Shown here piece after piece: positions 34,975-36,342 of a DNA stretch of 64,000 nt. The notes beneath the pieces are model-generated. The model was given only the letters and a program-made list of their open reading frames with translations, did not search any database and had not been told where the DNA came from. The stretch is from assembly GCA_017557435.1 (NCBI GenBank), contig JAFYYR010000019.1, forward strand, positions 1 to 64,000. The letters run 5' to 3'. The position numbers and the translations under genes were made by a program. Numbering within the stretch: the stretch's first letter is position 1; each line of letters begins with the position of its first letter. The DNA comes from Pseudobutyrivibrio sp. (GTDB taxonomy: Bacteria > Bacillota > Clostridia > Lachnospirales > Lachnospiraceae).

Positions 34975-35018
34975 CCCTAGGAACATTGAGTGTTCAATGT
35001 TCCTAGGGCTTTTTTATT
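34975..35018 (+). terminator. Very strong terminator after guaA
   Basis: CCCTAGGAACATTGA (34975-34989) and TCAATGTTCCTAGGG (34994-35008) form a perfect 15-bp stem with a GTGT loop, followed by a C and a T6 run. It insulates guaA from the array and nuclease-like gene downstream. Confidence 0.95.
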
Positions 35019-35055: not shown

Positions 35056-35084
35056 TTGACATTTTATCAATAAAAAGTTATATT
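35056..35084 (+). promoter_or_regulatory. Promoter upstream of the 39-nt hairpin array
   Basis: A perfect TTGACA (35056-35061), a 17-nt spacer and TATATT (35079-35084) form a near-consensus sigma-A promoter. RNA starting near 35091 would contain all five hairpin units and then the nuclease-like gene, as a leader of about 430 bases. A second TTGACA at 35021 lacks a good -10. Confidence 0.75.
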
Positions 35085-35198
35085 ACTGATCACTATTTAA
35101 TTATTTGTTTGTTTCTATCACAATCTAGGCGTATTATTTCATTTCGCCGCTTATCCCAGAGTGAATTTTTTTGATTAATTTGAGGCTGATGCTGCGTC

Positions 35199-35499
35199 AT
35201 GCATCCTAAAATTGATAATTATATTTTAGGGCTGCATATTTTTTGGGGCGATGCATCCTGTAGAAGATAATCAATATTTTGGGATGCATAAGTAATTGAA
35301 GGAATGCATCCCATACTTGAAATAGTTGCTAATGGGATGCATGAAGTGATGATAGTAATGAGAAGTTCATGAAAAAGAAGGAAGAATATTGATAAAAATG
35401 CATCCCATAATAGCAAAAGGTATCTAAGGGATGCATAGCTGCATAAATGGATTAATGTTAATGCATCCTAAAATATTTAAATGGCTATTTGGGATGCAT
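35199..35499 (+). repeat. Array of five 39-nt palindromic units in the leader of a nuclease-like gene
   Basis: Units lie at 35199-35237, 35251-35289, 35304-35342, 35398-35436 and 35461-35499. Each is exactly 39 bases: left arm ATGCATCC(T/C), 21 variable bases, right arm GGGATGCAT (GGGCTGCAT in unit 1). Gaps between units are 13, 14, 55 and 24 bases. In three units the ninth base pair is T on the left and G on the right, which pairs in RNA of this strand but not the other. Interiors share little sequence. Together with 35085-35198, in which I see nothing specific, this fills the gap from guaA to the next gene. It is not a CRISPR array. Confidence 0.9.
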
Positions 35500-35522
35500 T
35501 AATAAAGAAAATGGAGGACAAT

Positions 35523-36320
35523 TTGAGGAATTACAAAAGAGAATTAGAAGAGCAGTTAAAAGAAATCGATACTTTGATTAGATTAAATAATAAAAATCTT
35601 TCCAAACTTAAGAAGTTACCAGATGATGGCGTAAAGGCTTCAACAGTTCGTGGCTGTGATCAATACTATTTGGTAGATAAAAAGTCAGGCAAGCGTATAT
35701 ATGCTGGAAAGGAGAAACGTAAACTTATTCAGGGAGTTATCCAAAGAGACTATGCATTAGCTGTAGATAAGAAGCTTGCGGATTTAAGGAAGAGACTTGA
35801 GCGTTTCATAGCAAAATACGATATTAGTGAGGTGTCAGCTTTATATGAAAATTTGCCAGTAGCTAGAAAACATATTGTAAATCCAATAATAGAACCAGAG
35901 GATATTTATATCGAAAAATGGTTGCTTGCTTATCCAGGAAATCAAAACTCATACCCCGAAGAAGGTTTATATCAGACAAATAACGGTGAGATGGTACGTT
36001 CCAAATCAGAGAAGATTATTGCGGATGCATTGGAAAAGTACAATGTGCCCTATCAATACGAGCCTATGTTAGAGCTTGGATATAACACAATTTATCCTGA
36101 TTTTGTGACTCTTAATATAAGGACGCGAAAGACTATTTATTGGGAGCACCTAGGCATAGTTGCTGATATAGAGTATGCAACAAAGAATTTCAAGAAGATA
36201 CAAGGCTATGAGAAAAATGGTTACCTGTTAGGTAGAGATTTGATTATTACTATGGAGTCGGCGGAGGCGCCAATTGATGTGAAGCTTGTTGAGAAAAAAA
36301 TTAAAGAATTTTTGCTGTAG
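35523..36320 (+). CDS. Predicted PD-(D/E)XK nuclease-like protein behind the hairpin array
   Basis: From the TTG at 35523 the protein has 265 residues; in-frame ATGs at 35511 and 35481 give longer forms. TTG is preferred because GGAGG (35513-35517) precedes it by 5 bases, and the 35481 ATG lies inside hairpin unit 5. Residues 1-110 are charged and helical, probably coiled coil. A C-terminal domain has RSKSEKIIAD (Glu163), YPDF (Asp193) and YWEHLG (Glu208), then YEKNGYLLGRDLIITME. This order fits a restriction-endonuclease-like fold, but the lysine of the classical motif is not obvious. Similar uncharacterised proteins are, from memory, common in Lachnospiraceae. No methylase or partner gene is adjacent. 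Confidence 0.75.
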   Translation: MRNYKRELEEQLKEIDTLIRLNNKNLSKLKKLPDDGVKASTVRGCDQYYLVDKKSGKRIYAGKEKRKLIQGVIQRDYALAVDKKLADLRKRLERFIAKYDISEVSALYENLPVARKHIVNPIIEPEDIYIEKWLLAYPGNQNSYPEEGLYQTNNGEMVRSKSEKIIADALEKYNVPYQYEPMLELGYNTIYPDFVTLNIRTRKTIYWEHLGIVADIEYATKNFKKIQGYEKNGYLLGRDLIITMESAEAPIDVKLVEKKIKEFLL

Positions 36321-36342
36321 TTTTGATGCTACAGCTTTTTTA
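36314..36342 (+). terminator. Terminator overlapping the stop of the nuclease-like gene
   Basis: GCTGTAG (36314-36320, containing the TAG stop) pairs with CTACAGC (36329-36335), followed by TTTTTT. Confidence 0.85.

Follow-up and report, generated by a model that had tools for sequence, protein, structure and literature searches.

Two described kinds of bacterial loci, the RAYT/REP systems and the ToxIN loci, come closest to the locus studied here. In RAYT/REP systems, cognate palindromic repeats lie on the flanks of the RAYT gene and evolve along with it, and further copies of these repeats are dispersed elsewhere in the genome, often as inverted pairs (PMC2817692, PMC3116915). The same sources describe RAYTs as tyrosine transposases related to IS200/IS605, give REPs as usually exceeding 100 per genome, and present REPINs as sequences thought to form hairpins in single-stranded DNA or mRNA (PMC2817692, PMC3116915). 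In ToxIN, the tandem-repeat RNA ToxI is followed by a terminator that precedes toxN (PMC8860590).

The present system has in common with RAYT/REP a nuclease-type gene, flanking cognate palindromes that coevolve with it, and dispersed copies; coevolving flanking palindromes were found (array test passed at 177/223 loci vs. 7/46 controls; Mantel r 0.47, p 0.001, between arms and protein). It differs in its PD-(D/E)XK-like protein, in a widely spaced inverted repeat, in having several units in helical phase, and in its few copies, with 0 to 17 unit matches in each of 10 genomes for one arm type, compared with usually more than 100 for REPs. No IS200/IS605-type tyrosine transposase family appears among the Pfam matches (up to E 0.01) of 80 aligned members. 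The logic is like that of RAYT/REP, but enzyme and geometry are others. With ToxIN the system shares the order of promoter, repeat array and nuclease-like gene; unlike it, the repeats are inverted and have unrelated interiors, they are phased as in double-stranded DNA and lie on either side of the gene, no terminator-like site separates array and gene at the window locus, and the C-terminal half resembles another nuclease fold (by a weak structural alignment). The initial annotation had set the module apart from both type III toxin-antitoxin and RAYT/REP loci, and the features tested (enzyme and copy number, repeat type and terminator) agree with it.

Two further comparisons can be made. The C-terminal nuclease domain is common to PDC-S68, a phage-defence candidate of PADLOC, although the three models matched are 1202-1273 positions long; the present protein has 265 aa, in which a short reader precedes the domain, and an array accompanies the gene. 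Plasmid iteron and partition-site arrays also consist of repeated, helically phased sites beside the gene of their binding protein; unlike them, the protein is nuclease-like in this case, the loci studied are chromosomal, and no replication or partition function is indicated. No published description of these arrays was among the papers listed in searches of the open-access literature. The matched change of protein and site suggests that this large family of predicted DNA-cutting proteins from gut and rumen Clostridia forms a self-recognising nuclease system of a kind not yet described.

In the window, i.e., the whole stretch of 64,000 nucleotides of Pseudobutyrivibrio sp. DNA that was analysed, the guaA terminator on the 5' side and a stop-overlapping terminator on the 3' side enclose a locus in which a promoter-like site close to consensus is followed by five inverted repeats of 39 nt and then by a single gene. 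The parts are the following:

34975..35008, + strand: guaA terminator hairpin, left border of the locus (15-bp stem and T run)
35056..35084, + strand: promoter-like site TTGACA-17-TATATT (11/12 consensus match)
35199..35237, + strand: array unit 1, imperfect (39 nt, two arm mismatches)
35251..35289, + strand: array unit 2 (39 nt; 52 bp from unit 1; one arm mismatch)
35304..35342, + strand: array unit 3 (39 nt; 53 bp from unit 2; no arm mismatch)
35398..35436, + strand: array unit 4 (39 nt; 94 bp from unit 3; no arm mismatch)
35461..35499, + strand: array unit 5 (39 nt; 63 bp from unit 4; one arm mismatch)
35513..35517, + strand: ribosome-binding site GGAGG (from sequence)
35523..36320, + strand: nuclease-like gene whose product would read the array, 265 aa from a TTG start codon, coordinates including the stop (open frame; alignment of 80 sequences; AlphaFold mean pLDDT 91.6)
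35607..35708, + strand: residues 29-62, beta-hairpin co-varying with the arms, proposed DNA reader (partial r 0.42/0.38; strands 35-42 and 45-52)
35973..36317, + strand: residues 151-265, PD-(D/E)XK-like nuclease domain (invariant residues; end of the PADLOC PDC-S68 model, E 2.8e-28)
36314..36335, + strand: terminator hairpin overlapping the gene stop (8 pairs and T run)

The five palindromic units of the initial annotation, each of exactly 39 nt with a 9-21-9 geometry, were confirmed, with 2, 1, 0, 0 and 1 arm mismatches; pairwise identity among them averages 93% in the arms vs. 45% in the interiors. A search with the pattern proposed there matched 4/5 units exactly (six matches on both strands) vs. 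none in 100 dinucleotide shuffles, and the two bounding terminators were recovered as terminator-like hairpins at 34975-35008 and 36314-36335. The near-consensus promoter was found at 35056-35084, but promoter-like sites are no more numerous in the region than by chance (seven in 2.5 kb around the locus vs. a shuffle mean of 8.7), so that the call rests on position and quality. The nuclease-like gene is present behind the array, but a length of 265 aa from the TTG at 35523 is likelier than 279 aa; this start, behind the GGAGG at 35513-35517, was picked by a start rule together with the homologue alignment, and is considered the most likely one because homologues align from that point.

The spacing between units is not irregular. 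The four window spacings of 52, 53, 94 and 63 bp amount to 4.95, 5.05, 8.95 and 6.00 turns at 10.5 bp, all of them within 0.5 bp of a multiple of 10.5, for which the chance is about (3/21)^4 = 0.0004 on an integer grid with the period fixed beforehand. Across the family, same-orientation spacings peak near 42, 52-53, 62-63, 73-74, 84-85, 94 and 105 bp (101/109 loci, being those with at least seven sites each and taken without a significance filter). Three separate sets were then analysed after a significance filter, leaving out any array that had fewer than three spacings or repeated the spacing list of another. The best period is 10.5 for the Pseudobutyrivibrio upstream set (69 distinct arrays), 10.6 for the upstream set of other genera (58 arrays) and 10.7 for the downstream set (30 arrays), with per-array resultants of 0.77, 0.69 and 0.50, respectively, vs. 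maxima of 0.27, 0.33 and 0.41 in 2000 random-phase draws. The 50-55 bp mode was omitted as a check, since tandem duplication could create it, and the best periods were then 10.5, 10.3 and 10.7. Sites that share one face of double-stranded DNA would be expected to show such phasing, for which a single-stranded leader offers no evident reason.

How often arrays accompany the gene was assessed by a blind test, in which an inverted 8-mer repeated within 600 bp had to score above the best of 10 dinucleotide shuffles. The test was passed upstream in 170/235 regions (by a margin of at least 2 in 145) and downstream in 53/239 (margin of at least 2 in 35), some loci being included twice, from two collections. 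Both sides were tested at 223 loci: 46 of these pass on neither side, and the other 177 comprise 133 that pass only upstream, 16 that pass only downstream and 28 that pass on both sides. The controls, i.e., the upstream regions of the 46 window ORFs of at least 200 aa, passed in 7 cases, the target being one of the seven, and by a margin of at least 2 in 1/46; as controls also pass sometimes, the downstream pass rate is partly chance, and downstream arrays rest instead on loci read one by one, with clear examples at L250, L252, L253, L262, L263 and L110, among others. The search also misses arrays: the window gene region and L015 are weak or missed despite the arrays there, and L014, L036, L038 and L015 fail on both sides, yet motif refinement or a pattern search does reveal an array there. 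Of the regions taken from two more distant families within the class, 11/19 upstream and 4/20 downstream ones pass. The initial annotation had named homologues without an array as evidence against a dedicated module, which is not, as it was worded, what the 177/223 passing homologous loci show; its other such case, units scattered with no link to the family, does not hold as worded either, the units being linked to the family, but gene-less copies also exist. Its view of a conserved array and nuclease-like module whose arms and geometry look selected is supported.

Arms and protein change together. Over 76 loci, the set also used for the G-U test discussed below, the arms are more alike the more closely the proteins agree (Mantel r 0.47, p 0.001), and median arm similarity reaches 0.99 for proteins at least 80% identical. 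The correlation is higher for residues 29-62 (r 0.57), and remains at a partial r of 0.42 given the rest of the protein under a linear control; the corresponding values are 0.22 for helix 63-98, 0.04 for helix 5-28, -0.02 for residues 99-150 and -0.07 for the nuclease (151-265). Under a quadratic control the hairpin 29-62 keeps a partial r of 0.38 (permutation p 0.001), helix 63-98 has 0.15 (p 0.001) and the nuclease -0.05 (p 0.99). A sliding window places the peak of co-variation at residues 33-52. Columns 42, 38, 41 and 43, on or beside the first hairpin strand (35-42) of the AlphaFold model, are in the top nine, as are 82, 118, 22, 169 and 61, the first four of these lying outside the hairpin. 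Examples of reader strands with their arms are KASTVRG with ATGCATCCC, HVSRCRG with TACAGTT, and LEIKKNKG with TTACCACTG. Furthermore, the arms of paralogues are private: of 101 same-genome pairs analysed none shares arms (median similarity 0.34, maximum 0.66).

The two close relatives G012 and G019 add one case at guaA, where the arm type is ATGCATCCC in G019 and TACAGTT in G012. The flank before the array is 94% identical between them, and the sequence from inside the gene onward 91%; identity of the proteins, taken in blocks of 20 residues, is 35-50% as far as residue 120 and 90-100% beyond. Here the array and the N-terminal half have been exchanged together as one cassette, with the nuclease half kept. 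That the protein would recognise the phased array of double-stranded DNA belonging to it, by means of a hairpin that can be swapped, is a well supported reading of the compared sequences.

The explanation we favour, and hold to be fairly probable, is that of a two-part nuclease-like protein with its own DNA address, which would exert self-control at its own locus. The N-terminal domain would read the 9-bp arms via its hairpin, one dimer sitting on each inverted repeat, and with arms whole turns apart the dimers would be aligned on one face of the helix. Through the array, which mostly lies between the promoter and the start codon, the protein could bind at its own locus and limit its own expression, and the C-terminal PD-(D/E)XK-like nuclease would be held at a fixed place; arms and reader change in step and are exchangeable as a cassette, giving each paralogue a private specificity. 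Direct binding, dimerisation and autoregulation are in this scheme what we infer. Against it stand the 46/223 loci without an array by the test, the hairpin not being the sole high-ranking region, and the E-H third motif; also, the downstream arrays of some members fit simple promoter repression poorly. The naturally occurring pairs of reader and arm resemble a code that can be read off, which makes a DNA-recognition code directly testable. Should the nuclease be active, it could also be tested how cells cope with an enzyme directed against their own chromosome, and what role the dispersed phased arrays have.

Such dispersed arrays are found without a family gene. The window arms recur in their own genome at C18:37422-37774 (L035 2423-2775) as six units spaced 73, 53, 63, 63 and 62 bp, with no adjoining family gene; the neighbours, named by eye, are a methylguanine-DNA methyltransferase-like and an ACT-domain-like gene. 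A second specificity of the same genome, TACCACTAG, has a gene-linked array on C5, near a tRNA-Leu, and a seven-unit array without family gene at C2:22295-22650 (L273), the latter standing in front of an acetyltransferase-like gene (also named by eye). The ATGCATCC arm type gave exact pattern matches in 10/11 genomes searched, several of which hold extra arrays. One 39-nt arm type, searched for in 10 genomes at fixed spacing with up to 2 mismatches, matches between 0 and 17 times in each, gene-linked units included; the reversed-pattern control gave 0 in the other pattern searches and, at 2 mismatches, one match in G000 and none in the nine other genomes. G012 and G010 keep ATGCATCC arrays with no cognate gene among the subset of members whose arms were determined, and these orphan arrays call for another explanation, e.g., relics or mobility. 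No gene remnants were detected beside 20 gene-less-array loci (best E 0.11). By eye, gene-less arrays seem to favour 3' ends or convergent genes. A lone TACCACT inverted repeat lies inside an open reading frame at C8:15348-15383 of the own genome, unlike the arrays.

In the loci compared, these arrays are unstable; they may be mobile, or may persist after their genes are lost. On this point two wider readings meet, each of which we regard as possible and no better than tentative. One is a new gene-repeat system, in which the nuclease would know self by the phased array beside its gene, the array acting as a DNA-level antidote or sponge, array and hairpin forming one specificity cassette, the paralogues within a genome (up to eleven family matches) each having a private address, and gene-less arrays either spreading or serving as docking sites. 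The other is a REPIN/RAYT-like mobile system, in which the nuclease would help arrays to recombine or move and gene-less arrays would be carried along as non-autonomous passengers; arm reading is consistent with this too, but the main function would then be mobilisation instead of self-control. Several comparisons speak for such mobility. The gene-less arrays of G000, G019 and G008 are alike, with 77-85% identity over about 400-440 bp (the C18 array vs. G019, 84.6% over 395 bp; vs. G008, 79.5% over 440 bp), while no blastn match (E 1e-10) reaches further than about 50 bp into their flanks. One gene-less array is inverted between shared flanks in G009 vs. G022 (L278 2884-3143, L286 2854-3113); at another site, where the flanks are 96% identical, G019 has a full array and G012 about a single unit; and a third site with shared flanks carries a ATGCATCC array in G019 vs. 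a TTATCACA-type array in G012 (L334 1854-2126). However, the gene-linked copies keep fixed positions, at guaA and beside tRNA-Leu, the latter lying near 8/8 tested loci with TACCACT arms (L037, L097, L100, L101, L102, L104, L107 and L108) and being a fixed chromosomal position; each genome has few copies (0 to 17 unit matches); a search for empty sites of the gene-less arrays gave no clean one with target duplication; and ordinary repeat recombination can yield both number change and inversion. As separate observations, the TTATCACA-type array of L334 has a 73-bp step and a family gene about 2 kb off, transposase-like genes (by eye) lie beside or inside gene-less arrays at L283 and L285, and the L285 array is split in two parts about 1.7 kb apart.

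The protein itself has been modelled with AlphaFold at a mean pLDDT of 91.6 (92.2 for the N-terminal part alone), the N-terminal domain consisting in the model of two long helices with a beta-hairpin in between. The initial annotation had read a restriction-like fold from E, PD and E-H motifs and had asked for a structure prediction: once run, the C-terminal part aligned weakly with PD-(D/E)XK nucleases, and R159, S160, K161 and E163, P192 and D193, and E208 and H209 are invariant in the 80-sequence alignment, so the motif residues stand, but the third motif is E-H instead of E-x-K and the structure matches are weak. No solved structure matched the window protein with a Foldseek E below 0.001, and a PDB sequence search returned a weak match to T7 endonuclease I and one unrelated row. 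Pfam and NCBIfam gave no family for the window protein and PHROGs nothing useful; on the 80 aligned members Pfam gave scattered matches in single members (best E 0.0027). The reader domain alone finds weak prefoldin-like and coiled-coil matches in fold searches, and its likeness to the three-stranded arm-binding fold of lambda integrase (1z1b, E 0.35, probability 0.21) might be entertained as an idea from the model. The nuclease domain would presumably be catalytic.

The nuclease domain is also where a defence or toxin function might be sought: the enzyme would be kept inactive on the array, acting as a DNA decoy antidote, and be freed when the chromosome or its topology is disturbed, e.g., by phage. 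We deem this rather unlikely but, like mobilisation, a serious rival to self-control. Residues 141-264 match positions 1090-1218 of 1221 of a PDC-S68 phage-defence candidate model (PADLOC, E 2.8e-28), near its end, and the collections of phages, plasmids and viruses hold 3, 9 and 10 matches to the family, of which 8/9 plasmid records are parts of genes annotated as AAA family ATPase or helicase; the invariant nuclease residues, the many paralogues with private specificities and the swapped reader cassette would also suit a defence role. Nonetheless, the PADLOC match is limited to the nuclease domain, and the chromosomal positions are fixed. The phage and plasmid matches and 9/10 viral ones cover mainly the C-terminal nuclease domain; one viral match, L324, covers residues 1-245 at 28%.

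Doubtful to a similar degree is a plain autorepressor with an operator array, whose nuclease fold would be structural or DNA-contacting and would not cut. Phased operators are a classic repressor layout. Over the 150 bp that precede arrays, promoter-like sites matching at least 10/12 positions have a density of 2.15 per kb (26/74 loci) vs. 0.11 per kb within arrays (3/74), which suits a repressor. But R159, S160, K161, E163, D193, E208 and H209 are invariant in 80 sequences, and gene-less and downstream arrays exist.

The repeats had initially been taken for an RNA hairpin leader. Within units, arm mismatches are G.T/T.G in 85 and C.A/A.C in 67 cases (p 0.17; 386 units from 76/109 loci, a few of them oriented by a rule that may be wrong); 33/109 loci were dropped, being the named ones and those with fewer than 6 sites or with information below 9.5 bits. 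As RNA pairing should strongly favour G-U, the lack of a significant preference argues against it. The unit centre is A-rich on the gene strand in upstream arrays (AAAA in 430 intervals vs. TTTT in 133), while downstream (39 vs. 54) the A-tract tends to the other strand (11 vs. 4 informative arrays), so that the polarity seems to follow the array and not the transcript. Rfam gave three matches up to E 1, all below gathering scores, and no ToxN match for the window protein was among the matches listed in the curated-family searches. Between 34500 and 37000 at the window locus, all terminator-like sites lie before the array or at the gene stop, with none between array and gene. An RNA hairpin leader with an endoribonuclease, resembling type III toxin-antitoxin loci, is therefore most improbable: the position of the array between a promoter-like site and the gene and the slight, non-significant excess of G.U-type mismatches would agree with it, but the 10.5-bp phasing, the downstream arrays with their A-tract tending to the other strand, the gene-less arrays and the missing terminator-like site in the window do not, and reader-arm co-variation leaves the earlier claim unsupported. 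The RNA leader was discarded as the main reading on the phasing, the G-U test, and the downstream and gene-less arrays, and the results point to arrays recognised as double-stranded DNA. Upstream arrays probably lie in a transcribed leader, judging from their sequence context, and may have a secondary RNA role.

As regards its spread, the family comprises at least 570 confirmed stretches, counting one genome per species. The 80 family members among the matches listed belong mostly to Pseudobutyrivibrio, Butyrivibrio and unnamed Lachnospiraceae, and rumen samples are the source of many of them. The family was found in 47/246 genomes of the order, and the N-terminal part of the protein in 15/245 genomes of the class. 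Within the genus there are up to 11 family matches per genome, fragments counted. Decay of family genes was also noticed, several copies being fragmented or carrying an internal stop, e.g., G010:C1:887901-888683.
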